Positions 4,333-29,521 of a DNA stretch of 64,000 nt are shown here, piece by piece. Source of the stretch: Gluconobacter thailandicus F149-1 = NBRC 100600. Its GTDB lineage: Bacteria; Pseudomonadota; Alphaproteobacteria; Acetobacterales; Acetobacteraceae. Below the pieces are notes generated by a model. It had not been told where the DNA came from, ran no database searches, and saw only the letters and a program-made list of their open reading frames with translations. Position 1 is the stretch's first letter, and every line of letters begins with the position of its first letter. The stretch is taken from positions 1 through 64,000 of the forward strand of contig NZ_BANH01000017.1 of assembly GCF_000964465.1 (NCBI RefSeq), written 5' to 3'. A program made the translations under genes and the position numbers.

Positions 4333-5400
4333 TCAGAAGCGCCGGTAAACAAAATTCTTTGCTTCCGTGTGCTCGACAGCCTCTTCCACAATGTGATGGA
4401 ACGGAGACCGGCCGCATACCGGGTCCATATTAGCTGCATCTCCCGTCAGTGCCAGAGCCTGACAACGGCATCCGCCCCAGTCGATTTCCCGGCGGTCGCA
4501 GGAGCGACAGGCTTCCGGCATCCACTCTGTTCCACGAAACATATTGAACAGGCGGGAGTTGTTCCAGATTTCCGCCAGAGACTCATCCCGGACATTCGGA
4601 AACGTCATGTTCGGGATGATTTCTGCCGCATGACACGGTAGAACGCGGCCAGATGGCGAGATATTCACGAACCTCTGCCCCCAACCGCCCATGCAGGGTT
4701 TGGGTCTGTCTGCGTGATAATCAGGCGTCACATAGTCGATAGCCAAGCCGCCTTTAGCACGTTCAGCTTCAACGGCCCGGGTAGATTCTTCAAGCTGCTC
4801 CCGGCTTGGTAGAAGAACATCCCGGTTCTTCAGTCCCCAACCGTAATACTGGGTATGAGCGATCTCCACGCGGCCCGCTTTCAGTTCGCGGGCAAGTTCA
4901 AACATTTGCGGAATCCGCGCGACATTTTCCCTGTGAACAACGAAATTCAGCGTCATGGGAATCCCGGATGCCTGAATGAGCCGAGCGGCCTTCAGCTTGC
5001 GCTCCTGTGCGCCTTTCAGGCCACCAATGCGCTCAGCGCCCTCTTCCGTGACATCCTGAAATGAGAGCTGGATATGATCCAGACCAGCCTTATCCAGCGC
5101 TTCCAGTTTGTTGGCATCCAGCAGAACACCGGATGTGATAAGATTGGTGTAAAGGTTCAGCTTCCGCGCCAACGTAACCAGTTCGACCAGATCAGGCCGC
5201 GCCATAGGCTCGCCACCGGAGAAATGAACCTGCAAAACGCCCATCTCCGCAGCCTGTTCCAACACCCGACGCCAGCCCGCCGTATCCAGTTCCGCCGCCT
5301 TGCGCTCCAAATCCAGTGGATTAGAGCAATAGGGGCACGCAAGCGGACAACGATGTGTCAGTTCAGCCAGAAGGCTCATCGGAGGCTGGGGCAGGGTCAT
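4333..5400 (-). CDS. pqqE: PqqE, radical SAM enzyme of PQQ synthesis
   Basis: PqqE cross-links the glutamate and tyrosine side chains of the PqqA peptide, the first chemical step of PQQ synthesis; it works with PqqD. The radical SAM cluster motif is CPLACPYC at Cys18, Cys22 and Cys25, followed by the GGEP motif ([13 protein letters not shown]). The C-terminal SPASM region carries the Cys clusters [24 protein letters not shown] and DPVCGRSP for auxiliary iron-sulfur clusters. The length of 355 residues is normal. Its start overlaps the pqqD stop (ATGA), showing translational coupling. It is the last gene of the minus-strand cluster. Confidence 0.97.
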
Positions 5401-5672
5401 GCGCGAAGAACGCCCTTTTCCGTCAGATCAGAAAGAAGCGCGAGAACATCCGCGGAGATGACCTCACGCGGGGCGGAGAACTGTTCTGTCAGCGTCTCAA
5501 TGACACTGCCAACAGTCCGTTCCCCGTCCACGAGACCCAGGATATGTGGGGCGGCACCTTCAATAATAAAAGCCTTTTCGGGAGCTTGGACGAGCCAGAG
5601 ATCCCGGACGCGGTCCTGTTGAAGGCGATGACCGCGGGCAAAAGACAGCACGGTATCTTCCGTCACACTCAT
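5397..5672 (-). CDS. pqqD: PqqD, PqqA-binding chaperone
   Basis: PqqD is a small peptide chaperone that presents PqqA to PqqE. The 91-residue form beginning [17 protein letters not shown] fits the family; a longer in-frame start at 5753 lies within pqqC and is unlikely. The winged-helix fold family pattern is visible in [17 protein letters not shown], followed by a helical C-terminus ending [11 protein letters not shown]. Its start overlaps the pqqC stop and its stop overlaps the pqqE start, both by ATGA, so pqqB-E is a tightly coupled operon. Confidence 0.95.
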
Positions 5673-6388
5673 GGGACAAAAGCGCCTGGGGGGATATGGT
5701 CTTCCACATACGCATAATCCAGCGCATCCAGCATGGACCATAGAACGGAGCACTTGAACTCCAAAGCCCCCAGAACTTCCCGCTGCTGTTCCGGTGTCCG
5801 GGCATTCTCACGCACATAAGCCAGTGCAAAATCGGAATCTCGAGGAGCCTGGGTGAGGCGTGGCGTAAAATAGGCCAGCGTTTCTTCGGAAATGAAGTCG
5901 TAGTGACGCAGCATGCCGGAAACACGTTCGCTGATGATCGTCGGAGAAAACAGCTCGGTCAGTGATGAGGCAATAGCGGCCAGGATGGACTGATCCCGCA
6001 CAAAGTTCACATACGCATCCACAGCGAAGCGCGTCGCTGGCAGCAAGCCGTCCGTGCTCTCTACATAGTCCCGATCAAGGCCCAGACCGTCCGTAAGCAC
6101 GAGCCACCGGGCAACACCGCCTGTTCCGGGCTCTGTGCCATCATGATCTTCGATACGCCGGCGCCATTCGCGACGCAGCTCGGCGGTGGGCAGGCGAGCA
6201 AGGAGCGTTGCATCCTTGGCAGGGATCTTGGCCTGATAATAGTAGCGGTTCAGTGCCCAGGCCTGAACCTGCTGCTTCGTCAGCAGACCATCGTGCAGCT
6301 TGCGATGGAACGGATGACGATTGTGGTAGCGCTCGGCACCAATATGGCGGAGGAGGCCTTCGAGCTGATCGGGGGTCAGGAGGGTCAT
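5669..6388 (-). CDS. pqqC: PqqC, pyrroloquinoline-quinone synthase
   Basis: PqqC is the cofactorless oxidase that closes the ring and performs the final eight-electron oxidation to PQQ. The start MTLLTPDQLEGLLRHIG is chosen over an upstream in-frame start (6433) because it gives the usual length (239 residues) and an ATGA overlap with pqqB. The family's helical bundle is evident: the conserved N-terminal YHNRHPFH, QVQAWALNRYYYQAKIP and RIEDHDG segments carry His, Tyr and Arg residues expected around the substrate pocket. It ends [12 protein letters not shown]. Confidence 0.96.
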   Translation of the reverse strand: MTLLTPDQLEGLLRHIGAERYHNRHPFHRKLHDGLLTKQQVQAWALNRYYYQAKIPAKDATLLARLPTAELRREWRRRIEDHDGTEPGTGGVARWLVLTDGLGLDRDYVESTDGLLPATRFAVDAYVNFVRDQSILAAIASSLTELFSPTIISERVSGMLRHYDFISEETLAYFTPRLTQAPRDSDFALAYVRENARTPEQQREVLGALEFKCSVLWSMLDALDYAYVEDHIPPGAFVP

Positions 6389-7299
6389 GGTGTTTCCAGT
6401 CTGAAAGTCATGCCGTCTTCGGACACGGTCCACCCCGCGTTCTCGACGTCTTTGCGTTCCGGACTGTCTTCCATCAGAACCGGGTTCGAGTTGTTGATGT
6501 GAAGCAAGACTTTACGCGGTTTTGAACAGGACGCGAAACACTCGACAGGGCCGCCGTTGTCCCGCACCGAAACATGTCCCATCCGCTGACCCGTTTTTGG
6601 GCTCAGGCCAGCACGGATCATTTCATCGTCGCGCCAGAGTGTTCCATCGAAAAATAGCAGATCTGCCTGGGAGACACGTTCGATGATGTCTGCTGTGATA
6701 TGGGCACAGCCCGGAATAAACAGGGCTGTCTGCATCCCATCCGTGATCGAGACACCCAGCGTTTCATCAGGGCGCGAACCTTCAGCTTCGGCGTAGAGCG
6801 GTGCTTTCCCTGGCACAGCAAAGGCCGTGAGTGTCAGGCCGGAAGGAGTGCCGTCTTTCAACTTCAAGACTGTCGGTGTGTCCAGCATCAGAGCCACACG
6901 CGGGACAATCGCTGGATCAAGCGCGCCGAAAATGGGGTTGGCAGCCAGTTGGTCCAACGTGGACTCACTTCCCATCAAGGTAAAAGGCTCACGTTCACGC
7001 AGGGTCAGCAAGCCCGTAATGGCGTCGATTTCGCCACAGGTCAGGATAACACTCTGGATTGGTGTTCCACGTAGACTGCCTTTTTGGTGAAGGGCTGGCG
7101 TCTCGATGATCTGCTGTCGCAGGTCCGGGGAAGCGTTGAGAACAAACCAGTGTTCTCCATCGGCACTCACGGCAATGGAGGCCTGAGTGCGAGGGCGTGC
7201 GCCCTGTCGCGTGCGAGCGGCGACACATCCGGGCGCTGCGGAGTTCCATTGAGGGAACCCACCGCCGGCCGCGGAGCCGAGCACGATGACATCAATCAT
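6385..7299 (-). CDS. pqqB: PqqB, metallo-beta-lactamase-fold oxygenase of PQQ synthesis
   Basis: PqqB hydroxylates the tyrosine-derived part of the PQQ precursor. The protein opens with MIDVIVLGSAAGGGFPQWNS, the signature start of the family, and shows CRxC-like CVAARTRQGARPRTQASIAV, then SPDLRQQI, the metal-fold segment VILTCGEIDAITGLLTLRE, and the C-terminal HVSVRDNGG and LLHINNSNPVL motifs. The length (304) is standard. It overlaps pqqC by four bases. It is preceded by a terminator-like hairpin that separates it from pqqA, so its expression should be lower than that of pqqA. Confidence 0.97.
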   Translation of the reverse strand: MIDVIVLGSAAGGGFPQWNSAAPGCVAARTRQGARPRTQASIAVSADGEHWFVLNASPDLRQQIIETPALHQKGSLRGTPIQSVILTCGEIDAITGLLTLREREPFTLMGSESTLDQLAANPIFGALDPAIVPRVALMLDTPTVLKLKDGTPSGLTLTAFAVPGKAPLYAEAEGSRPDETLGVSITDGMQTALFIPGCAHITADIIERVSQADLLFFDGTLWRDDEMIRAGLSPKTGQRMGHVSVRDNGGPVECFASCSKPRKVLLHINNSNPVLMEDSPERKDVENAGWTVSEDGMTFRLETP

Positions 7300-20348: not shown

Positions 20349-20424
20349 GCCCAAGTAGCTCAGTTGGTAGAGCATGCGACTGAAAATCGCAGTGTCACTG
20401 GTTCGATCCCGGTCTTGGGCACCA
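20349..20424 (+). tRNA. tRNA-Phe (anticodon GAA)
   Basis: A complete 76-base cloverleaf: the acceptor arm GCCCAAG pairs with CTTGGGC, the D-arm begins TAGCTCAGTTGG, the anticodon loop holds GAA in CTGAAAATC, the T-loop reads GGTTCGATCC, and CCA is encoded. Its 3' end is the integration site of the adjacent element and is kept intact. Confidence 0.97.
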
Positions 20425-21556
20425 TTTCATAACTTCCCCCTTCAAAATCAATAGCTTGTCGGTCCTTTCCGTCCCACCTGCGATTTTCGTGCTGTGAGTG
20501 GGACTTTTCGTTACTGACCAGACGTGCGAAAGCACGCTTTGCAAGCCGCTTTTGGTCTGCTGCATTTGTGTATCTCTGAACTTCTTTGAGAGAGCGGTGA
20601 CCTGTGACCGCAGCAATTTCGTGAGCCGAGCATCCAAGCTCTGCCAGTCGCGCAGCCGCAGCCTTTCGCAAGCCATGTGACGAGCATTGAGGCAGCCCCG
20701 CAGCATTGCACCAATCCCGAAATCGGTTGCCAAAGCTTTCCGGCGTGTAAGGACGCCCATTCATTCCTTGAATGAACGTGTTGCCTTCTAATGCTCCAGG
20801 CGTGGCCTCAATGATGCGCCATAAATCCGGCACGACTGGTAAAGTCAGGGTAACCGGCTTCCGCTTTCCGTTTTTCACTTGTGTAAAAGTGAGAGAACCA
20901 TCCCGAATGTCTTTGATACCGAGTCGAACTGCATCGCTCCTACGCTGCCCCGTGTACAGCAAGACTGCGAACGCCAGGCGAGCCGGTGATCCTATCGGAT
21001 AGAAAGCCTCGAACGTCTCAATCTCGGCAGGCGTCCAGCTATGAAACCCGCTGCCACTGGCAGGGATATATCCAACCTCTTTCGCGGGGTTTTTCTCGAT
21101 CATCCCAACCTGAACGCCAAAAGCGAGCAGCGCACGCAATGCCTTCAAGATGCCGTTTCCAGCTTCCGGCTTACCTGCCTTCGAATCCCGTAAAGCCATT
21201 ACATGCTTCGGCAGCAAGGTGCTGACAGGATTGGAACCACATTTCTCACACAGATTGTCCAGTACACCCCGTCGCACATATCGTGTGCGACTATCGAGAC
21301 GACCGAAAACAGCCGATCGATAATACGTCACGCAGAGATCCCGAAAGCTGCCCGGTATCAAAACCTCACTCTTTGACTGAGCAGGCGCAATTTCTCCAGC
21401 CAATGCACGGCGATATTCATCGTCGAATTCTGGCGTTCCAGGCGCTTCTCTGAGACGGATTTTTCTATGTCCAGGACGACGCAGATAGACACGGGTTTTC
21501 CCGTGCCTGTCAGTGTCCTCCACCACATATTTGTAGTGCTTACGGACCACGATCAT
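20360..21556 (-). CDS. Tyrosine recombinase (integrase) of the element
   Basis: A site-specific tyrosine recombinase of 398 residues that should catalyse insertion into and excision from tRNA-Phe. The catalytic domain shows YTGQRRSDAVRLGIKDI (first catalytic Arg), HGLRKAAAARLAELG (HxxR), GHRSLKEVQRYTNA (final His and Tyr nucleophile). The ATG at 21556 overlaps the stop of the AlpA-like gene by ATGA. The last 20 or so codons run through the att core into the antisense strand of tRNA-Phe, giving the odd tail GIEPVTLRFSVACSTN. In the excised circle the tail would change to GVEKDSSNK. Confidence 0.95.
   Translation of the reverse strand: MIVVRKHYKYVVEDTDRHGKTRVYLRRPGHRKIRLREAPGTPEFDDEYRRALAGEIAPAQSKSEVLIPGSFRDLCVTYYRSAVFGRLDSRTRYVRRGVLDNLCEKCGSNPVSTLLPKHVMALRDSKAGKPEAGNGILKALRALLAFGVQVGMIEKNPAKEVGYIPASGSGFHSWTPAEIETFEAFYPIGSPARLAFAVLLYTGQRRSDAVRLGIKDIRDGSLTFTQVKNGKRKPVTLTLPVVPDLWRIIEATPGALEGNTFIQGMNGRPYTPESFGNRFRDWCNAAGLPQCSSHGLRKAAAARLAELGCSAHEIAAVTGHRSLKEVQRYTNAADQKRLAKRAFARLVSNEKSHSQHENRRWDGKDRQAIDFEGGSYEMVPKTGIEPVTLRFSVACSTN
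20409..20427 (+). repeat. attL core (19-bp direct repeat)
   Basis: CCGGTCTTGGGCACCATTT, comprising the 3' part of the tRNA-Phe T-arm and acceptor stem plus CCA and three bases. It is repeated exactly at 29503-29521. Confidence 0.93.
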
Positions 21557-21822
21557 TTCAATACCGAATCCCACTCATTAGCTCTTTCCAATCCTGAAAA
21601 AAGCGCTGTTTCATCCGGTTTAGCCCCGCTCATCCGAGCCGCAGCCGACACCAACGAAGGTCGATGCCAGAGAACGATTTTTCCAAAACGGATCGGGCGC
21701 GGCGCATGACCTTCCTCGACCATCCGATCAAAGGTTGATTCACTCACCCCCCAGAACGCCGCCGCCGCGGATCGCCGAAGAAAGATAGGCACCAAACCGG
21801 GCGGGAGATGATCGTATTTCAC
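21553..21822 (-). CDS. AlpA-like DNA-binding protein (probable excisionase/activator)
   Basis: An 89-residue protein with an AlpA/MerR-type helix-turn-helix: FLRRSAAAAFWGVSESTFDRMVEEGHAP followed by RPIRFGKIVLWHR. AlpA of satellite phages and cryptic elements activates integrase expression or helps excision; the direct coupling to the integrase gene (ATGA overlap) and to the portal gene (ATGA at 21819-21822) supports such a role here. The C-terminal 30 residues are not conserved in composition. Confidence 0.8.
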   Translation of the reverse strand: MKYDHLPPGLVPIFLRRSAAAAFWGVSESTFDRMVEEGHAPRPIRFGKIVLWHRPSLVSAAARMSGAKPDETALFSGLERANEWDSVLK

Positions 21823-23147
21823 GCGCTTGCCCCTTCATTTTGATGCGTGCCAGGAGCCGGAAAGCCGTCATCAGTATGACCGGGTTTCGGTGCAAGAGAG
21901 GGCATGCCAGGCGCATCCGCAGGCCAGTTCGGCGCGCTACCGTTTCGCAACGCATCGCCATCAGCATGCGAAGACAGCCCAACCGCATTGCGCGCCTCGT
22001 TCGCTGTCATGATGCCGCTCTGCACCTGAGCGCAGTTAGCAGCGGCAACCGCGCTATAATTGCCCCGCAGTAAGCCGCCCATATCAATCAGAAGATGATA
22101 CCCGGCCGGCAACACCGCTTGGTCAAACTCGGCTTCAATCGCAGACACAATCGGCGCCAAGGTAAGTTGAGCGAAAGCCGTCAGATAAGGTGACAAATCA
22201 GCCGGCAGCCGGTCGCCTAATTGAATCAGTGGTTCAGGCACACGAAACAGACGACAGATTTCAGCAACACCGAATTGCCGACTTGCGAGAAACTCTGCAT
22301 CTGCGCTGTTCAAGCTTGCTGGCTTGAAAGACCATCCACCTTCAAGAAGTGGAACTTTGCCTGCGTTCAGCGCCCCGGAATAATCTTGGAGGGATGCCTT
22401 AGCCTGGGCGCGTTGCTCTTGGGTAAGATACGAAGGCGATGATAGGTAGCCAGAAGGCCGCATACCGTTTCGCCAGGTCTTTTCTGCCACCTTGGACATT
22501 TCGAGGCTTTCGCGAACGACGCCAGCCGCCCGCGCAAGCACGCTTCGACCGATCAGGCCATTATCTGATCGTGCCTTAATGTGAAGGACTTCCGTGTCCA
22601 GCAGACGCGACGGCAAACCCAGAAGCTGAGTTTCAGGCGTTGAGGTCACAACGTCGAACACGAGCCGAGAGTGTGTGCCAACGCCAACAACTTGCGGACT
22701 AAGCCACGTCCAGGGAATAGGCGTGAGGCTGACCACAGCCCCGCGTGCATCTTTCTTGATCCACGAAACGGAATTGCCCTGCATCTGCAAATCAGCAACG
22801 ACTTGCATACAGAATGACGGCCAGCTTTGCCTCGTGTTCGGGCGTGAGATCAGTTTGACGGCTGGCAACGTGTCCTGGGCGGCCTGACGTCCATCTTCAG
22901 CATCAGCGACGATAGAAGCTGGAAGGCTTGCAATCGACGCGGTTGTGATTTCAAGGCAAGCAGTAACAGCGGACAGGCTTTCAGAGAGCCATGCAGACAC
23001 CGGACCATGCGCCGTCTGCGTCGCGCCCAAACCTACGCTCACAGCGCCCCAGCCGTCAGAATATCGGCCTGAAACCCGGCTTTCTATCGACAGGACAGGT
23101 TCTTTCCGCACACGACTGCGAGGCGTTGAATTCGTGAAAAAGCCCAT
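21819..23147 (-). CDS. HK97-family phage portal protein
   Basis: Portal proteins form the dodecameric ring at one capsid vertex through which DNA enters and to which tails attach. The 442-residue sequence matches the HK97 portal family: an N-terminal segment with LSIESRVSGRYS, VSAWLSESLSAVTACLEITT, SWPSFCMQVVADLQMQGNSV and PWTWLSPQVV, then FGVAEICRLFRVPEPLIQLGD and QLTLAPIVSAIEAEFDQAVLP, and a proline-rich tail. The length is complete. Its start overlaps the protease stop by one base (TAATG). No terminase gene lies nearby, which is unusual. Confidence 0.93.
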   Translation of the reverse strand: MGFFTNSTPRSRVRKEPVLSIESRVSGRYSDGWGAVSVGLGATQTAHGPVSAWLSESLSAVTACLEITTASIASLPASIVADAEDGRQAAQDTLPAVKLISRPNTRQSWPSFCMQVVADLQMQGNSVSWIKKDARGAVVSLTPIPWTWLSPQVVGVGTHSRLVFDVVTSTPETQLLGLPSRLLDTEVLHIKARSDNGLIGRSVLARAAGVVRESLEMSKVAEKTWRNGMRPSGYLSSPSYLTQEQRAQAKASLQDYSGALNAGKVPLLEGGWSFKPASLNSADAEFLASRQFGVAEICRLFRVPEPLIQLGDRLPADLSPYLTAFAQLTLAPIVSAIEAEFDQAVLPAGYHLLIDMGGLLRGNYSAVAAANCAQVQSGIMTANEARNAVGLSSHADGDALRNGSAPNWPADAPGMPSLAPKPGHTDDGFPAPGTHQNEGASA

Positions 23148-23689
23148 TACAGCCTCAACATCGTCAGAACGCGGTCCCGGTATCGCTCTACGTGGTAAAT
23201 CTCACCAAGCGGACGACTACGCGGCTCCACGAAAGTTTCGGCATAGGCGGGATGCGAAGAGATGATGGAAATCTCGTGCAGCCGCGCCCCGTGAATGATC
23301 CGGGTTTCTCGCCCTTGCCATTCGTCAACAGCATCAGAAAAGCCAATGCTTACGCCGCCAAGATCGCCGCGCTTGGCCATGGCATGCACATCCCGGCCAC
23401 GTTCGGTATCTGGCAGATCAAGAGCAAAGTGCAGCCCATCGGCCCGGTCTTCGAGTTGCAAGGTGCCAGAGCGCGTGCGCCCTAGCAGCTTGGCAGCATC
23501 GTGGTCCTGCAACGCCAGAATATCCTGACCTTCGCAGGCCGACCGGAGCGCATGGGCTGTAAAACGTTCGGAGAAGTTGCCGATCTGCGCGGGCTTGTCA
23601 TAAGGCACCGCCAGACCCCGGAGAGTAAGGCCACTTCCGGCAGGCGTGACACCCGCCGAAAAGCGCATTTCCATTGTCCCGCGCGTCAT
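23147..23689 (-). CDS. HK97-family prohead protease
   Basis: A serine protease that matures the capsid by cleaving scaffold segments. The 180-residue protein has the family's LTLRGLAVPYDKPAQIG start, FSERFTAHALRSA, the catalytic-His segment ILALQDHDAAKLLGRT, and the catalytic-Ser segment RGDLGGVSIGFS, then RLHEISIISSHPAYAET. It lies three bases after the capsid gene in the direction of transcription and overlaps the portal start, so the three head genes are co-expressed. Confidence 0.93.
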   Translation of the reverse strand: MTRGTMEMRFSAGVTPAGSGLTLRGLAVPYDKPAQIGNFSERFTAHALRSACEGQDILALQDHDAAKLLGRTRSGTLQLEDRADGLHFALDLPDTERGRDVHAMAKRGDLGGVSIGFSDAVDEWQGRETRIIHGARLHEISIISSHPAYAETFVEPRSRPLGEIYHVERYRDRVLTMLRL

Positions 23690-23692
23690 GGA

Positions 23693-24937
23693 TCAGCCCC
23701 CAGCCGCAGCTTTAGGGGCAAGAACCGAAAATGCCTGCGGACGGCGAACCGCCACATCGGCGCTCTGGATCACCCGGATCTGCACGTTGCCGCGCTGGAA
23801 GGCTTCAGACGCATATGGATTGACCAGGATTTCTACGACACCCCACATGCCGATCAGCAGGTTCGTCCAATCCCCCAGGACAAGAGAACCAGCCGGAACG
23901 TTGGTGCTCCATTGTGCGGGCAGGCCCGCTAGCGTTCCATCATCCATGATGAACCCGGCACCCACCGAGGCAGCCTTCGGAGTTGCCATTAGGGATGCGC
24001 GAACACCTGCACCAATCGCCCACCCATTCGGCACCGCATTGGCCGTTTCCAGATCCGTCAGGCGAGCAAGAATTTCCGGCCAGGACAAACTTCCTGCCGT
24101 GTAATCGGCAGTATGTGCAGCCTGCGGAATGACACCTTTAGGGGTGAAGTTGGTTCCATCACCAGCCAGAGCAGCAGCGTCCAGAGCCTGCGCCATGACT
24201 GCTAGAAGATCGGATTGTACCAATTCCTGAGCAGCAGGGCTGGAAAGCATCAGTGTATTTCGGCTGATTTCAGCGATTGATCCGCATGTCTTCGGGCTCA
24301 TGACAATGCCGTCATAGGCTGGATTTCCCGCAGGAAGAGTCTGGTTTTCCCCAACCCATGCCGCCTGCGCCGCAGCCGTCTGGCGAGGAATACCGATATT
24401 GCCAGAAAGGCCATCCAGCACGACCGCGCCAAGCTGTTGCGTAATCAGGCGCGCCCGCAGAAGGCTAACGAACTGGTCCGGGCGCTGTTGTGTCGGGATC
24501 AAGCTCGCCGCTTCACCAGCGGTCCCCTGAGCGCCAGTCGTCAGCGTTGCGCGGGTTTCCAGATTAGGCGTGAGGTCCACCAGAATGCCGCCTGCCTGCG
24601 GCTTCTGGCCTGTACGACGCTCGATCTCGGCAGACATTTCACGCGCCCGCCCGGTCCGATCATCATCCGTGATCCCGCGTACCTGGGCACGGACCGCATC
24701 GACCAGAGTGAAGCTGTTGCGCGCCCGCTGGTAATGAGCATCGCCAGACAGCGAAACACCCGGAGCCGAACGCGCTAGATCGTCCAAGGCACGTTGACGG
24801 GTTTCACGGGCCTTGAGCGCATTGGCTTCCGTTTCCAGGTCAGACCAACGCTTGTCGATCTCCGGGCCGCTCTGGCCTTTGATCGCTTCCATGTCCGCCA
24901 GAACGGCGGAAAGCGTGCGGGTTGCAGAGCTATTCAT
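23693..24937 (-). CDS. HK97-fold major capsid protein
   Basis: The shell-forming protein of the particle. The 414 residues have an N-terminal helical scaffold-like delta domain (residues ~1-120, rich in Ala, Glu and Arg) and the HK97-fold core: GGILVDLTPNLETRATLTTG, DGLSGNIGIPRQTAAAQAAWVGENQTLP, the E-loop-to-spine YDGIVMSPKTCGSIAEISRNTLMLSS, GWAIGAGVRASLMAT and LVLGDWTNLLIGMWGVVEIL. It starts inside the stop of the HTH-like gene (ATGA overlap). No separate decoration or head-tail connector gene is seen. Confidence 0.94.
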   Translation of the reverse strand: MNSSATRTLSAVLADMEAIKGQSGPEIDKRWSDLETEANALKARETRQRALDDLARSAPGVSLSGDAHYQRARNSFTLVDAVRAQVRGITDDDRTGRAREMSAEIERRTGQKPQAGGILVDLTPNLETRATLTTGAQGTAGEAASLIPTQQRPDQFVSLLRARLITQQLGAVVLDGLSGNIGIPRQTAAAQAAWVGENQTLPAGNPAYDGIVMSPKTCGSIAEISRNTLMLSSPAAQELVQSDLLAVMAQALDAAALAGDGTNFTPKGVIPQAAHTADYTAGSLSWPEILARLTDLETANAVPNGWAIGAGVRASLMATPKAASVGAGFIMDDGTLAGLPAQWSTNVPAGSLVLGDWTNLLIGMWGVVEILVNPYASEAFQRGNVQIRVIQSADVAVRRPQAFSVLAPKAAAGG

Positions 24938-25476
24938 GCCACACCGCCAACATCGTGAGAGTGAGGGCCAACATTCGCTTCCAGCGCCTCGTCCATACGC
25001 TGCACAACGGCATTCACGTTGATGACATGGAAGGCGTTGAAAGCCGATACGCCTTGTTCACCGGCAGCGGCGGCTAATTCCAAGTCAGAGAGACCAGCCA
25101 GCACCGATGCTGTTTCAGCCCCCTCGAAATGGACCAGATACGTGCGACGACCGCCCTTGAGCAGTTCTCCGGGCACGAAGCCGGGAAGCGGACCAATTTC
25201 GGAGCGCCCGACATACGCAAAGCCCGCAGCAACCTTGGCAGCGAGAGCCACCGGCAAGCCAAGACGCTGCCCTTCGGCCACAAGGCCAGTCTGAATAGCC
25301 TGACGACGCGAGAAGATGATTGCTCCACCGCGACCGGAAGTCTCTTTCTGGTCCAGATCAGCAAAGATGATGTTGTCTTCTCGCTTGATCCAACCAAGAA
25401 GAGTGCCGCGAGAAATCTTACCGCCTGCGCACAGGTGAGGCAGACGGTAGAGGTGTTCGTCATTATCGACAGACAT
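24934..25476 (-). CDS. HTH/MerR-like protein of the element
   Basis: I cannot name a close family. The first 75 residues look like a MerR-type winged HTH (LPHLCAGGKISRGTLLGWIKRED, then GGAIIFSRRQAIQTGLVAEGQRLGLPVALAAKVAAGF). The remainder is a mixed alpha/beta region with GELLKGGRRTYLVHFEGAET. It is the first gene of the tightly overlapped head operon and could be its regulator, or possibly a DNA-binding packaging protein such as a terminase small subunit; sequence alone does not decide. A palindromic operator-like sequence (25516-25538) lies just upstream. Confidence 0.6.
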   Translation of the reverse strand: MSVDNDEHLYRLPHLCAGGKISRGTLLGWIKREDNIIFADLDQKETSGRGGAIIFSRRQAIQTGLVAEGQRLGLPVALAAKVAAGFAYVGRSEIGPLPGFVPGELLKGGRRTYLVHFEGAETASVLAGLSDLELAAAAGEQGVSAFNAFHVINVNAVVQRMDEALEANVGPHSHDVGGVA

Positions 25477-25515
25477 TGAGCGTCCTTTCAGGAGAGGTTA
25501 TTCATCCGATAACCA

Positions 25516-25538
25516 TTTGGGTTTATCGTGAACCCAAA
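25516..25538. promoter_or_regulatory. Operator-like palindrome before the head-gene operon
   Basis: TTTGGGTT (25516-25523) and AACCCAAA (25531-25538) form 8-base arms with a 7-base spacer, 40-60 bases before the start of the HTH-like gene. CGTGAACCCAAA (25527-25538) recurs as CACGAACCCAAA at 29416-29427, before the primase gene. Confidence 0.5.
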
Positions 25539-25569
25539 CCTAAAAACAAGAACTCTGGTGGGACATTCG

Positions 25570-26007
25570 TCAGATGGCCAGAAGATCGCGCAAAATCGAG
25601 TTATAGGCTCGCACGTTCCAGAACTCGTCGGGATCATCAGCAAGCCCTTCGCGTTCCCAGGACGCCATGGCTTTCGTCTTGGCAAGCACACCGGCAATGC
25701 TCACGGCTGGCGTTTTGATGATCTGCTGGAACAACGTATTTTCGCGCTTGTAGAGCACCGTGAAGATCGGCTCTGCCTGCTGCTCTTCCTCGAACGTATC
25801 GACGGAAGCATGAGCAGCGTCGATCTTGTCTTGCACCGCAATAAACTGCTCGCACATCGCAATCAGATGCACGTCCGATTTATGGCCTTCCGGCTTCGTG
25901 GGCGCGGCGGACAGGCTTTCAGGCTTTGCGAGGGATGCGGTAGCGATGCCACCGAGTAGGACAGTCCCGAGAGCCGGGAAAATGTCACGACGATTTACTG
26001 AGCGCAT
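25570..26007 (-). CDS. Small exported protein with Tat-like signal, unknown function
   Basis: A 145-residue protein with an N-terminal twin-arginine-like signal (SVNRRDIFPALGTVLLGG, cleavage near SLA-KP). The mature part is mostly helical and charged (LIAMCEQFIAVQDKIDAAHA, TVLYKRENTLFQQIIKTPA). Similar small Tat-signal proteins occur in alphaproteobacterial prophage regions without known function. The ATG at 26007 has a good AGGAG eight bases upstream; a longer open frame to 26079 runs through structured leader sequence and is unlikely. It is preceded by an unusual multi-hairpin leader (26008-26145). Confidence 0.65.
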   Translation of the reverse strand: MRSVNRRDIFPALGTVLLGGIATASLAKPESLSAAPTKPEGHKSDVHLIAMCEQFIAVQDKIDAAHASVDTFEEEQQAEPIFTVLYKRENTLFQQIIKTPAVSIAGVLAKTKAMASWEREGLADDPDEFWNVRAYNSILRDLLAI

Positions 26008-26145
26008 AATAGCGGCTCCTGTAGCTTTCGTTGCCGAAAGTGCTTGCTGTTGAAGGCACGCACTCCGGGGGTTCAACACCTGGCTACAGTCAGGCCGGTA
26101 GGGCTTTAAGGTTGCCCTCTGGACATACCCCTAACGCCCCCGGAG
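26008..26145 (-). ncRNA. Candidate structured RNA leader, three-way-junction-like
   Basis: On the minus strand a perfect 9-bp stem CTCCGGGGG/CCCCCGGAG (26145-26137 with 26071-26063) encloses two hairpins: AGGGC/GCCCT (26118-26114 with 26104-26100) and CCTG/CAGG (26094-26091 with 26082-26079). Downstream are a GTGC...GCAC stem (26063-26040) and CTTTCG-GCAA-CGAAAG (26040-26025), a 6-bp hairpin with a GNRA tetraloop, then AGGAG and the ATG of the Tat-signal gene. The arrangement suggests a cis-regulatory or independent small RNA; no known family was recognised. Confidence 0.5.
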
Positions 26146-26258
26146 CGAAATTCAATTGTGCGGATTACGGCGTCCGTGCCGTGCCCGCTGTAGCCACTAT
26201 TCCATGGAGTGTTGAAGCTCCGTGACTGAACGTGCCAGAAACATGGCTTACCGTCAAT

Positions 26259-26771
26259 TTAATACGGATTTTTCGGAATACGTGTTTGGCTCTTTATCTC
26301 ATAAAAAACTTTTGAAATATACCCTCTTAAATTCTGGCATTTTTCATTGTATTTTTTATTCAAAATCTCTTCACTGGTAATTTTTTTTGACTTTTCTAAT
26401 TCAAATTCTTTTTGAAAATTTCTTAACACCTCTATTTGAAGCAAAGCATTATCAAAATTACAGTGGAATATTATTTGAGATAAAAATATAAAATTCCTTA
26501 TTTCAGCAATATCTTCAAAACTATATTCTTTGTTTGAAGTTCTAATTAACCATTTATTTATTTGAAAAATACATTCGTATTTTTTATCAAATAAATCCAA
26601 TTTATATTGATTAGCAGCGATGTCTCTTTGTGTTTTAGTAGCTATATACGTGGCAAAAGAAACTATAATAGGTATAAAAACAATCAGTGCACTCCATATG
26701 CTTGAAAGTATAAGCTCGATCCACTCTACCCGTGTATGTAAGTGAGTTAATTTTTCCAATTCGTAAATCAT
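26259..26771 (-). CDS. AT-rich membrane-anchored protein of unknown function
   Basis: A 170-residue protein, not recognised. It has one or two hydrophobic segments near residues 20-45 (ILSSIWSALIVFIPIIVSFA), then a long Lys/Asn/Ile/Glu-rich soluble part with helices (NFIFLSQIIFHCNFDNALLQ). The gene is strikingly AT-rich compared with its neighbours in the element and with the host, which implies separate acquisition as cargo. Such single-gene insertions in satellites often carry phage-defence or host-benefit functions, but nothing in the sequence proves that here. Confidence 0.6.
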   Translation of the reverse strand: MIYELEKLTHLHTRVEWIELILSSIWSALIVFIPIIVSFATYIATKTQRDIAANQYKLDLFDKKYECIFQINKWLIRTSNKEYSFEDIAEIRNFIFLSQIIFHCNFDNALLQIEVLRNFQKEFELEKSKKITSEEILNKKYNEKCQNLRGYISKVFYEIKSQTRIPKNPY

Positions 26772-26892
26772 ATAGATATTCCCTTATATCTTTGAATTAT
26801 TTGATTGTTTTCAAACATCAGCAAAAAATCTACGCATGAGCCTGACGCGGTTCCGGTGCCCGCCCTCGGCCATTGCTCACCCTCCCCCGTTT

Positions 26893-27231
26893 TCAGTGCC
26901 CGGCCCGAATTCTGCGCGCCAGGCGACGGATGCGCCAGACTGCATCCGCTTTCGCCAAGTGAAAGGCTTCCGGGTTTCGATGGTCAGGCAGAAGCCGACG
27001 AACGACCGCTGCAATTGCGTCTAACTCATCGCCTTGCGTCGGATGCGTCACATGCGTCGGATTTTCCCTATAACCCTTATATGCGTACGCGCGTGTAGGG
27101 CGATAATAGGTTTTATCCGACGCATCCGACGCATGTGACGCAAGATCAGGTGAAGAATGACAGTTTTCCGCCGTTTTTGAATTTCGTTCCTGCGTCGGAT
27201 CGAAACTAACAAACCGTCTGCGTTTCGTCAT
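26893..27231 (-). CDS. Small basic protein overlapping the element's iterons
   Basis: A 112-residue frame that starts inside the primase stop (ATGA overlap at 27228-27231). The N-terminus is basic (MTKRRRFVSFDPTQ) and the C-terminus is an Arg-rich helix (AVWRIRRLARRIRAGH). The middle encodes ASHASDASD and NPTHVTHPTQG because the DNA there consists of iterons. The coupling to the primase gene favours a real protein, perhaps a replication accessory factor; it may also be a frame kept open by the repeat composition. Not recognised. Confidence 0.5.
   Translation of the reverse strand: MTKRRRFVSFDPTQERNSKTAENCHSSPDLASHASDASDKTYYRPTRAYAYKGYRENPTHVTHPTQGDELDAIAAVVRRLLPDHRNPEAFHLAKADAVWRIRRLARRIRAGH
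27036..27200. repeat. Iteron cluster, probable replication origin of the element
   Basis: Three tandem 9-bp units at 27036-27062 (GCGTCGGAT, GCGTCACAT, GCGTCGGAT) face three inverted units at 27115-27141 (ATCCGACGC, ATCCGACGC, ATGTGACGC) across a 52-base spacer that is AT-rich on both sides of a central GCGTACGC palindrome. A seventh unit lies at 27192-27200. The cluster is next to the P4-type primase-helicase gene, as expected for its binding origin. Confidence 0.7.
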
Positions 27232-29390
27232 TGAGGATCAGCCCATGACAGCGGTTTCACCTCCAACCCACGAAACCCACGTTGGTTTCTGAATCCTTTC
27301 GGATCTCGACAGAGAACAAACCCACGCTTCTGCAAAGCAGAACTGAACCGCTTTGCGGACCCGATCTCTTCCCCCGAACGCTTGGCGAGTTCAGCCCAGC
27401 TTGCAAACAGTGCCTGCGTCGTGTCCTCACGCTCTGGCGATACATTGCAGGCCGTATCGAGCCACTGACCAAGCACGTCCTGCTCAGAGAAGTATTCCGC
27501 CGTAGCATCCACGACAGCACGTGGACGGACAAGACCATTCATCTGCCAGTCATACGCGCCCTCGATCATCCAGCGCAGGATTGCAGGCCATTCATCACGC
27601 AACTTTACCTCAAGGCGCGGATCAGGAGTATCTGGCTTGCGTTCAAAGCCGAGAATGTTGAACCGCCGCCGCATGGCTTCATCGACTGTATGCAGGATCG
27701 GTTTATGATTCCCGACGATCATCAGCTTGAAGGTAGGCCGGTACTGAAAGAAGTCCTGACGCATGAAGCGTGCCGTGATCGTATCGCCGCCCGTAAGCTG
27801 TTTGATCCGTGCTTCAGCCCATGGGCGGCCTTCTTCGGTTTCAGAAGCCGTCACCAGACGCGCACCACGCAACATCGCCAGATCCGTAGGGTGACGATCC
27901 ACGCCAGAAGCAACGAACGTCTCCATCGCAGCATTGCTCGCATAATCACCGAGGATGCCTGCAACGGTATTGATGAACACCGACTTGCCGTTTCCACCTG
28001 GGCCATAAATGAACAACAGCGCGTGTTCCCGAGTATCGCCCGTCAGGCAGTAACCGCACCAGGCACGCAGAAAACGGATCATCTCATGGTCGCCCCCTGT
28101 TGCCTCGAACAGAAAGCGGTCCCAGATCGGACAATTCGGCTGTTCTGCTGGTCGCACAGCAACATGCCGTGTGATATAATCTTCCTGACGTGCTGCTCTT
28201 GATTGTGTAGTGCGGAGGTCAACGGTTCCGTCAGGCGTGCCAAGCAAGAGCGGATCGGTGTCCCATATCGCGGAAGTAACCGCAAAGGCGCGTGCAGTCT
28301 GAGCAAAAGCCTCGACACCTCTTGCCGCACTTGCACGCGCCATGATCGCCGCAGTCTTCCCATCCGAATTTGACGATACCAGCTCACGGGCAATCGTTCG
28401 GCACCAGTGATAGGCCAGCCGCGTTTCTTCACGCTTCCAGTGAGAGCCAGCCCATTCAAACCATGCCCCGACATTGTGATCGTAGCGCAGTTGGTCCGCA
28501 AACCGGGCTTCGAAAGCCAATGCAATGCCGTCTTCTGTCGGTGGAAATGCTGAAATATCCACCTGAGCAGCAGGAGCCTTTTGCTCGACCCTATCCGCCA
28601 GCCTCTGCAACTCCTGAGCCGTGCCGCCTTTCCGCAGCCAGTCCACAACATCGCCTTTACTCGGCAGGTCAGGCAGCGTGAGCATGCGCAGACGCCTAAC
28701 CTGCCCTGACAGAGCCTTGCAAACCTCGTCTGCATGCTTCCGGCCGGGATCATCATTATCCGGCATGACGACCACGCTCGCACCCTTCAAGGCCATGCCG
28801 TAATCATCATTCCACTTTCCAGCGCCGCCAGGCGAACAGGTTGCCGTCAGGCCGATAGCTTCCAGAGCATGCACGCTCTTTTCGCCTTCAACGATCCAGA
28901 CAGTTTCTCCCGCTTCCATGGCCTGCAAGACACGCGGAAGACGATAGAGAACGCGCTTTGCACCCTTAGCGCCCCATTTCCAGCCGCCTCGACCGTCAGG
29001 GGTCTGCTGTCGGAAGTCCTTTGGCTCAAGCCGGACAACACGAAACAGGACTTCTCCATCCGCCGACAGATAGTCGTAATTTTCGACCACACGAGGCTTC
29101 GAGCGAGGCTGCTGGTCCCGTTCAGGCAAAAACCCACCGTCTCGCAGCCACTTTGCCGCTGCTGACTTGTCCAGGGACTTTTGCCGCATGACCAGTTCGA
29201 TCATGCCGCCGCCGGTCCCGCTTTCATGATCCTGCCAGACGCCTTTTTCTACATCGACGGCAAGGCTGCCACGGGAGCCGAAGCGCAGTTCATGCGGCTT
29301 CGACATTTTGCGGTTCGGGCCACCAAGGAGCGCCAGGGCAACCTCTTTGGCGTTCTTCTGAAATGCCGCGATATTCGTGCCACTCATCAT
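27228..29390 (-). CDS. P4-type primase-helicase (D5-like) of the element
   Basis: A replication protein that combines primase and helicase. The start at 29390 is chosen for the GGGAG five bases upstream; a longer frame runs to 29426. Residues ~1-110 include a CHC2-like zinc-free N-terminus (GVWQDHESGTGGGMIELV). A TOPRIM domain follows with VEGEKSVHALEAIG (~167) and MPDNDDPG (~210). The C-terminal D5/superfamily 3 helicase has Walker A LFIYGPGGNGKS (~465) and LMIVGNHKP, then LRDEWPAILRWMIEGAYDWQ. About 720 residues, complete. This is the element's only replication gene and argues for autonomous replication from the neighbouring iterons. Confidence 0.93.
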   Translation of the reverse strand: MMSGTNIAAFQKNAKEVALALLGGPNRKMSKPHELRFGSRGSLAVDVEKGVWQDHESGTGGGMIELVMRQKSLDKSAAAKWLRDGGFLPERDQQPRSKPRVVENYDYLSADGEVLFRVVRLEPKDFRQQTPDGRGGWKWGAKGAKRVLYRLPRVLQAMEAGETVWIVEGEKSVHALEAIGLTATCSPGGAGKWNDDYGMALKGASVVVMPDNDDPGRKHADEVCKALSGQVRRLRMLTLPDLPSKGDVVDWLRKGGTAQELQRLADRVEQKAPAAQVDISAFPPTEDGIALAFEARFADQLRYDHNVGAWFEWAGSHWKREETRLAYHWCRTIARELVSSNSDGKTAAIMARASAARGVEAFAQTARAFAVTSAIWDTDPLLLGTPDGTVDLRTTQSRAARQEDYITRHVAVRPAEQPNCPIWDRFLFEATGGDHEMIRFLRAWCGYCLTGDTREHALLFIYGPGGNGKSVFINTVAGILGDYASNAAMETFVASGVDRHPTDLAMLRGARLVTASETEEGRPWAEARIKQLTGGDTITARFMRQDFFQYRPTFKLMIVGNHKPILHTVDEAMRRRFNILGFERKPDTPDPRLEVKLRDEWPAILRWMIEGAYDWQMNGLVRPRAVVDATAEYFSEQDVLGQWLDTACNVSPEREDTTQALFASWAELAKRSGEEIGSAKRFSSALQKRGFVLCRDPKGFRNQRGFRGLEVKPLSWADPQ

Positions 29391-29415
29391 GCACACTCCC
29401 GGCTTTTGAGTGGGA

Positions 29416-29427
29416 CACGAACCCAAA
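29416..29427. promoter_or_regulatory. Operator-like motif before the primase gene
   Basis: CACGAACCCAAA lies 26-37 bases upstream of the primase start and matches CGTGAACCCAAA at 25527-25538 in 10 of 12 bases. Both occupy promoter-proximal positions, so a shared regulator is plausible. Confidence 0.4.
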
Positions 29428-29502
29428 TAAATCTAACAAAAGCATATGGAAATTTCTGACCCACGCCCTTGTAACTATTTGTTTGAACTGTCTTTCTCGA
29501 CG

Positions 29503-29521
29503 CCGGTCTTGGGCACCATTT
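29503..29521 (+). repeat. attR core (19-bp direct repeat)
   Basis: An exact copy of the 19-bp sequence at the 3' end of tRNA-Phe (20409-20427), without the rest of a tRNA. It marks the right end of the element. Confidence 0.93.

Follow-up and report, generated by a model that had tools for sequence, protein, structure and literature searches.

The 64,000-nucleotide stretch of Gluconobacter thailandicus F149-1 = NBRC 100600 analysed here (the window) carries a 9,094-bp unit in tRNA-Phe(gaa), measured start to start between 19-bp attachment (att) cores, that encodes a capsid protein, a prohead protease and a portal. Our analysis makes it probable that this unit is a mobile satellite that builds its own head, carries no packaging motor and uses a helper-type cohesive-end (cos) site to be packaged by the terminase of a helper phage. 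The ten genes of the element all lie on the minus strand, in the transcription order primase-helicase, g9, g8, g7, g6, capsid, protease, portal, AlpA-like, integrase (Table 1). A preliminary description of this DNA had proposed this content and single-strand layout, and family matches bear out the portal, protease, capsid, integrase and primase. The AlpA-like gene that it named is present as well, but its PHROGs matches are weak, and neither Pfam (above the cut-off) nor NCBIfam gives a match for it. Searches of the ten proteins against PHROGs, Pfam and NCBIfam, at the E-values applied, matched no terminase, tail or lysis family, and the only connector match was a stray one (E 0.005) inside the capsid protein. 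Profiles of the HNH protein and large terminase (TerL) of the element's own family likewise gave no match in the unit.

The 19-bp direct repeat seen earlier at both ends was confirmed as two identical cores, the attL copy overlapping the 3′ end of tRNA-Phe; the chance expectation for an exact 19-bp pair in an 11-kb stretch is 0.0002 (equal base frequencies). The integrase 3′ end crosses the att core into the tRNA, giving a protein of 404 aa in the integrated state and of 397 aa in the circular form, where the frame would run through the joined att core. Comparison of 20 Gluconobacter flank loci provided the empty sites that had been suggested as a check, in four sister genomes in which the tRNA is joined near right-flank DNA. 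In two of them, DNA resembling the right flank begins 33 bp (G013) and 54 bp (G004) beyond the tRNA 3′ end; in the other two, G023 and G014, the matching DNA comes from farther out in the window's right flank and begins ~90 bp beyond the tRNA.

The evidence for borrowed packaging comes from a comparison of the element interior, as DNA, with 26 Gluconobacter genomes. Matches were obtained in five genomes (G000, G019, G023, G003 and G008), comprising the element itself (G000 is the window's genome), the element L063 of Gluconobacter aidae (genome G019), portal-gene stretches (G023 and G003), two marginal stretches (G008 and G003; E ~0.002) and 73 bp in G023. This last match, between 26790-26862 and G023:C22:7262-7334, is 88% identical over 73 bp (E 4.9e-18). 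The site is non-coding in the element, where it adjoins the cargo slot; its G023 counterpart falls in the interval from HNH to TerL on a contig with an HK97-type prophage. In a related phage (L135), a 99-aa frame has its start codon just after the end of the site, and TerL, portal, protease, capsid and head–tail adaptor come next; this frame is a small-terminase candidate by position alone, its sole match being phrog_15261, of unknown function. The site consists of a dyad, an A-run and TTTGAT repeats leading to the terminase gene, a layout that we take to recall the cosN-cosB-terS arrangement of lambda-type phages. In HK97, the HNH gene is directly upstream of the terminase and the cos site, and its product helps to cut cos (PMC10448857; here and below, cited papers are represented by excerpts of their text). 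These observations suggest that the shared site may act as the packaging start. The preliminary description had proposed that packaging is borrowed, and a site common to the element and HK97-type prophages at the HNH–terminase junction lends that idea independent support. That description had mentioned neither this prophage-shared DNA nor the iteron array and the relatives with a terminase, which are described below.

Besides the window, three of the 33 family loci carry the site, all of them in the window's clade (L063, 90%; L057, 85%; L072, 76%); it was not found in the other 30. In L057 the site is the sole match to the 26 loci compared. Both strands of 15 of the 17 IMG/VR loci with a related TerL were then scanned for the dyad core (L141 and L147 were left out). 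The core was present with 0-3 mismatches in all five loci that combine a TerL identity of at least 76% with sufficient DNA upstream. Nine loci whose TerL is at most 51% identical gave 6-10 mismatches, the range also given by 399 random control stretches; taken together, the ten tested loci outside those five gave 6-11. L136 had too little upstream DNA to count, and L144, L145, L148 and L150 have 349-723 bp upstream. When 2.9 million viral contigs were scanned for exact matches to the core, four contained one. Two of these (the G. aidae element and L072) had helped to define the pattern; the other two, the phage contigs L133/L135 (close to the phage of G023) and L134/L137, had not. The site had no match among INPHARED phages and PLSDB plasmids.

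The 73 bp could instead be a regulatory region, a late promoter/operator or a terminator, through which helper late regulation activates the structural genes, with packaging signals elsewhere. The site does lie upstream of the structural genes in phage and element alike, and it contains a weak terminator-like stem with a T-run and a weak promoter-like match. However, the stem is imperfect in L138, L139, L140 and L072, as read from the alignment, which indicates conservation of the DNA itself and not of an RNA stem; moreover, the site occupies the junction at which the HK97 cos lies (PMC10448857), and in G. aidae the next frame downstream of it is a convergent cargo gene. We therefore regard a purely regulatory role as unlikely.

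Table 1. Features of the element and its integration site (window coordinates).
Feature	Position	Strand	Matches and remarks
tRNA-Phe (gaa), integration target	20349..20424	+	ARAGORN
att core at tRNA end (attL)	20409..20427		identical to 29503-29521
Tyrosine integrase	20360..21574	-	PF00589 6.6e-21, phrog_1
AlpA-like regulator/excisionase (weak matches)	21553..21822	-	phrog_25900 5.4e-7, phrog_66 3.6e-4
HK97-type portal	21819..23147	-	PF04860 1.4e-66, TIGR01537 9.5e-51
Prohead protease (S78)	23147..23689	-	PF04586 3.8e-31, TIGR01543 4.5e-19
HK97-type major capsid protein	23693..24937	-	PF05065 9.9e-32, TIGR01554 5.9e-23, phrog_617
g6, predicted CvkR/MerR-like DNA-binding protein, proposed repressor	24934..25476	-	AlphaFold model, Foldseek
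g7, N-terminal hydrophobic/twin-arginine-like stretch and helical bundle	25570..26079	-	
Cargo slot	26222..26787		not alignable to G. aidae element (blastn); position of HNH-TerL in terminase-bearing relatives
g8, AT-rich cargo gene (26.5% GC), one hydrophobic stretch	26259..26771	-	
cos-like site common with HK97-type prophages	26790..26862		non-coding; dyad core ~26833-26849
g9, small frame overlapping iteron array, kept in relatives	26893..27231	-	no family match (PHROGs, Pfam, NCBIfam)
Inverted iteron array, candidate replication origin	27033..27144		
P4-type primase-helicase	27228..29426	-	PF08706 9.7e-25, TIGR01613 7.5e-82, phrog_6088 6.6e-143
att core at far end (attR)	29503..29521		identical to 20409-20427

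The element belongs to a family centred on the Acetobacteraceae and having the head-gene order capsid-protease-portal. When 395 genomes of the order were searched with a portal profile made from 11 loci, at least 29 loci, spread over 24 genomes, had scores of at least 363.9 bits, the next portal scoring 259 bits; this count is a lower bound, in which several of the 29 are profile rows and four candidates per genome were scored. A search of the class (385 genomes) placed none but the window and G744 (429 bits) in that range, and the member in G210 came from the family search. In a portal tree of 41 rows, nine phage portals are separated by a 100/100 branch; L059, which has a broken portal, was omitted from the portal trees. 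The usual gene order is primase, g9, then either HNH, an adaptor-like gene and TerL or cargo, then g7, g6, capsid, protease, portal, alpA and int. Exceptions are L062 (g6-like gene beyond the portal), L065 (integrase at the primase end) and L070 (integrase on the opposite strand), and in many loci some genes went undetected.

The distinct group of capsid-making satellites proposed in the preliminary description is supported, but the lack of a terminase does not define it. HNH and TerL are present in nine of 17 att-bounded units (L061, L074, L079, L084, L087, L088, L089, L090 and L091), and no TerL was found in the remaining eight (the window, L063, L057, L064, L065, L073, L080 and L082), as judged by the family TerL profile, inspection of large frames and phrog_2/phrog_9 searches of 16 chosen genomes that include six whole-genome carriers of these eight units. 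In L065, the large frames left unassigned resemble the spurious ones that GC-rich DNA produces. Adaptor-like matches are weak (phrog_137 3.1e-5 in L087; PF07030 8.2e-4, below the cut-off, in L088). On a tree of the joined head proteins (22 rows), TerL presence takes four changes, two of them forced by well-supported branches, and on the portal tree it takes four as well; no sampled member of the window's clade (window, G. aidae, L057 and L072) carries TerL. The relatives did not prove to be full prophages: they are 9-11 kb long and bounded by att sites, no tail genes were found in them, and the head genes are intact.

Some members show further features of the motor and cargo region. In L084 and L087-L090, the interval from HNH to TerL holds an adaptor-like frame and, directly ahead of TerL, conserved non-coding DNA that is perhaps a cos site of their own. 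G354 holds three closely related TerL-less elements (L076, L077 and L078), one with a split integrase, and its whole genome gave no phrog_2 or phrog_9 TerL at E<=1e-5. In the cargo slot of L078 (4471-4964), a HicA toxin match (PF07927 5e-11) follows a DUF1902 gene, which we presume to be HicB-like. PADLOC gave no match for five cargo proteins, g8 included.

Several observations argue that the element is still live. Its DNA identity to the G. aidae element is 97.2% in the protease, 95.0% in the capsid, 93.2% in the primase and 89.4% in the portal gene, whereas the 925 bp of chromosome beside the tRNA are 74% identical between the two species. Head genes so much more alike than the flank suggest horizontal spread. 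Amino-acid identity is 76% in the integrase, 77% in AlpA and 50% in g7, and the cargo is also much more divergent, so the element is a mosaic. Ratios of nonsynonymous to synonymous substitution (dN/dS) of 0.04 (capsid), 0.05 (portal), 0.22 (protease), 0.14 (primase) and 0.44 (g7) argue for purifying selection on the head genes and for a live element. Decay of a prophage or satellite to an immobile remnant without terminase would account for the genes that relatives have and this element lacks, and damage does occur in the family (the portal of L059 contains a stop, and the integrase of L077 is split). Such decay is nevertheless very unlikely here: all ten frames are intact, the att cores are perfect, the head genes diverge far less between species than the chromosome, and the same TerL-less layout recurs in four loci with differing cargo. 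Disabling mutations in the capsid genes, which the preliminary description had considered, did not come to light, the head genes being intact with dN/dS of 0.04-0.22.

Genes and repeats for replication and control accompany the head genes. Inverted repeat arrays lie directly 3′ of the primase gene, with repeats at the corresponding position in eight of eight loci examined, with and without TerL (no shuffled control). The repeat unit (iteron), TGCGTCGGA in the window, reads TGTGTCGGA in G. aidae, having changed in concert, and the array may be the origin used by the primase-helicase. The frame of this enzyme begins with TTG; the ATG at 29390 fits the relatives, whose alignment starts at residue 14. 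An AlphaFold model of g6 (predicted local distance difference test score 74.6), made from 10 of 13 alignment rows (L061, L069 and L072 were dropped as not alignable), is closest to the MerR protein CvkR (Foldseek E 4e-3, prob 1.00), with a structure alignment of Z 11.4 and a root-mean-square deviation of 3.5 over 143 residues. On the strength of this model, g6 is proposed as the element's putative repressor. It is not universal, its profile matching 12 of 34 loci, and L072, although a member of the window's clade, encodes another protein at this position. A small-terminase function for g6 was considered and was not our first choice, the model matching CvkR along its length; a packaging-adaptor role could still be accommodated. 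The g7 model had no structural match at E<=0.001.

The search for a helper points away from resident prophages. No HK97-type (phrog_9) TerL was found in the window's genome at E<=1e-5. TerLs of this type occur in 11 of 26 Gluconobacter genomes, the carriers G000 and G019 not among them, and phrog_2-type TerLs occur in all 26. Resident prophages were rejected as helpers, neither of the two phrog_2-type TerLs in G000 matching phrog_9. One of them lies in a locus (L114, G000:C175:145000-164999), on the window's contig outside the window, that looks by eye like a Mu-like prophage. The other lies in L115 (G000:C177:7000-26999), which has, close to dnaB, a frame that looks by eye tail-sheath-like. 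A terminase-bearing counterpart occupies the corresponding chromosomal position in G019 (L117, G019:C24:1-20000), and the two possibly represent a conserved tailocin- or gene transfer agent-like locus. Within the window, three minus-strand frames at 4333-7299 look like the pyrroloquinoline quinone biosynthesis genes pqqE, pqqC and pqqB. Since neither carrier was found to have a phrog_9-type TerL, the proposed helper would either infect from outside or reside as a prophage in other strains. The candidate L135 has the order portal-protease-capsid, in contrast to capsid-protease-portal in the element family, and its capsid protein is 25% identical to that of the element over 143 residues. This divergence makes co-assembly unlikely and bears on a further explanation, that the element is an interference island, in which the chief effect of capsid, protease and portal is to poison the assembly of helper heads, its own packaging being incidental. 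Satellite proteins that redirect or disrupt helper heads are described in excerpts of PMC12409344 and PMC13230959, yet the complete capsid-protease-portal set is conserved here and the packaging-like site is kept, and we consider interference as the main function highly improbable.

The size of the units bears on the head that would be filled. Among 20 loci searched, a second att copy was found in 17 and none in L062 (where the contig ends), L077 and L078. The size count comprises 16 loci and the window, L070 having been dropped (10,439 bp, 14-bp repeat, integrase on the opposite strand, no TerL match). These 17 units span 9,037-11,307 bp, 10,615 +/- 191 bp with TerL and 10,136 +/- 939 bp without; in most, the primase is the last gene and adjoins the far att copy. 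Such a narrow range suggests a fixed head capacity. In the available text of PMC7762592, a genome-length model assigns 11.8 kb (8.1-17.1) to heads of triangulation number T=3 and 13.2-24.5 kb to T=4. The units, at 9.0-11.3 kb, fall within the T=3 range, and T=3 heads are predicted for the element by this scaling; multimers in a larger head would also be compatible. We further consider it quite possible, at somewhat less than even chances, that the family is a 9-11 kb lineage with a private, fixed-capacity T=3 HK97-fold head, in which the motor is an exchangeable module: HNH, adaptor and TerL are either kept or traded for cargo and a copy of the cos site of a local phage.

In the course of events that we propose for a helper-packaged satellite, the CvkR-like protein would keep the element silent until a helper phage relieves repression and the element excises. 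It would then replicate from the iterons and assemble small (T=3) procapsids from its own head proteins. With the copied cos as their target, the helper's HNH and terminase would load a single 9.1-kb genome into each of these heads, the helper genome being too large for them, and helper connectors, tail and lysis functions would complete and release the particle.

Several points weigh against this proposal. The carriers G000 and G019 have no phrog_9-type TerL, so the proposed helper is not resident, and the portals of element and candidate helper are 33% identical, so the fit of the helper motor and connector to the element portal is assumed. The core of the site scores as a weak terminator, with a weak promoter match overlapping its edge. 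The L072 copy, 76% identical to that of the window, matches no phage locus at E<=1e-3. No HNH–terminase junction match was found for the other TerL-less members (L064, L065, L073, L077, L078, L080 and L082) in a comparison with 26 phage or locus sequences that included a single carrier-genome prophage (G065, L130); their matches outside L092 were 37 bp (L064-L151), 45 bp (L080-L130) and a tRNA (L077-L114). Finally, the search for a second att copy extended to 10.6-12.7 kb from the tRNA in the loci that were counted or dropped, and longer units would escape it.

Among known systems, the element most resembles capsid-forming phage-inducible chromosomal islands (cf-PICIs), whose features are taken here from excerpts of PMC10690885, PMC10448857, PMC13230959, PMC11389934 and PMC12409344. 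It is an att-bounded island with an integrase, AlpA (weakly matched), a P4-type primase and its own HK97-type capsid, protease and portal, with no tail genes, and its terminase-bearing relatives (for example, L087, L088 and L090) add HNH, TerL and a weakly matching adaptor. Unlike cf-PICIs, which encode HNH, small and large terminase and head–tail connectors according to excerpts of PMC10690885, it has none of these; its order is capsid-protease-portal, its size is ~9 kb and a helper-type cos-like site stands in place of the motor. With P4 satellites it shares a P4-family primase, an AlpA-like protein and tRNA integration. The site common to the element and HK97-type prophages lies at the expected place and is a candidate for a cos shared with the helper. 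P4, in contrast, remodels the helper's capsid, whereas this element encodes its own capsid, protease and portal; genes of the P4 sid and psu type were not found in it. As in PICIs, including Staphylococcus aureus pathogenicity islands, helper packaging and tails are proposed for an island with regulator, primase and integrase, but PICIs redirect helper capsids and steer packaging by a satellite small terminase (TerS), Rpp or cos (PMC10690885, in part), whereas the capsid here is the element's own. The Escherichia coli RepA_N satellites are putative satellites with capsid genes, said in excerpts of PMC10448857 to be without terminase genes; unlike the element, they are described there as lacking protease, alpA and Pri-Rep and as having tape measure genes. 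Vibrio TG93/PISP is a capsid-bearing putative satellite with a MerR-like regulator and protease, but the capsid of TG93 is of the CapsidE type, and TG93 encodes a small terminase and lacks an integrase (PMC13230959, in part). A copied helper cos is not mentioned for either group in the excerpts of PMC10448857 and PMC13230959. The terminase, tail and lysis genes of an autonomous tailed prophage were not found within the att unit. The element thus falls outside both the cf-PICI definition (terminase, connectors) and the P4 definition (capsid) and appears to join both principles. No earlier description of a Gluconobacter/Acetobacter satellite group was found in the excerpts of the satellite literature compared, and one may exist in taxon lists or supplements.

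Satellite finders that expect terminase genes might overlook the TerL-less members of this family. T=3 HK97-fold heads are listed as missing among tailed phages, an absence called puzzling in a 2020 modelling paper (PMC7762592, in part), and the narrow 9.0-11.3 kb size offers a concrete lead to such heads. The analysis also names candidate helper phages and makes motor–portal compatibility testable. If the proposal is true, head making and head filling would be separable in a satellite, which would combine its own shell and portal with a foreign motor and a copied DNA address.

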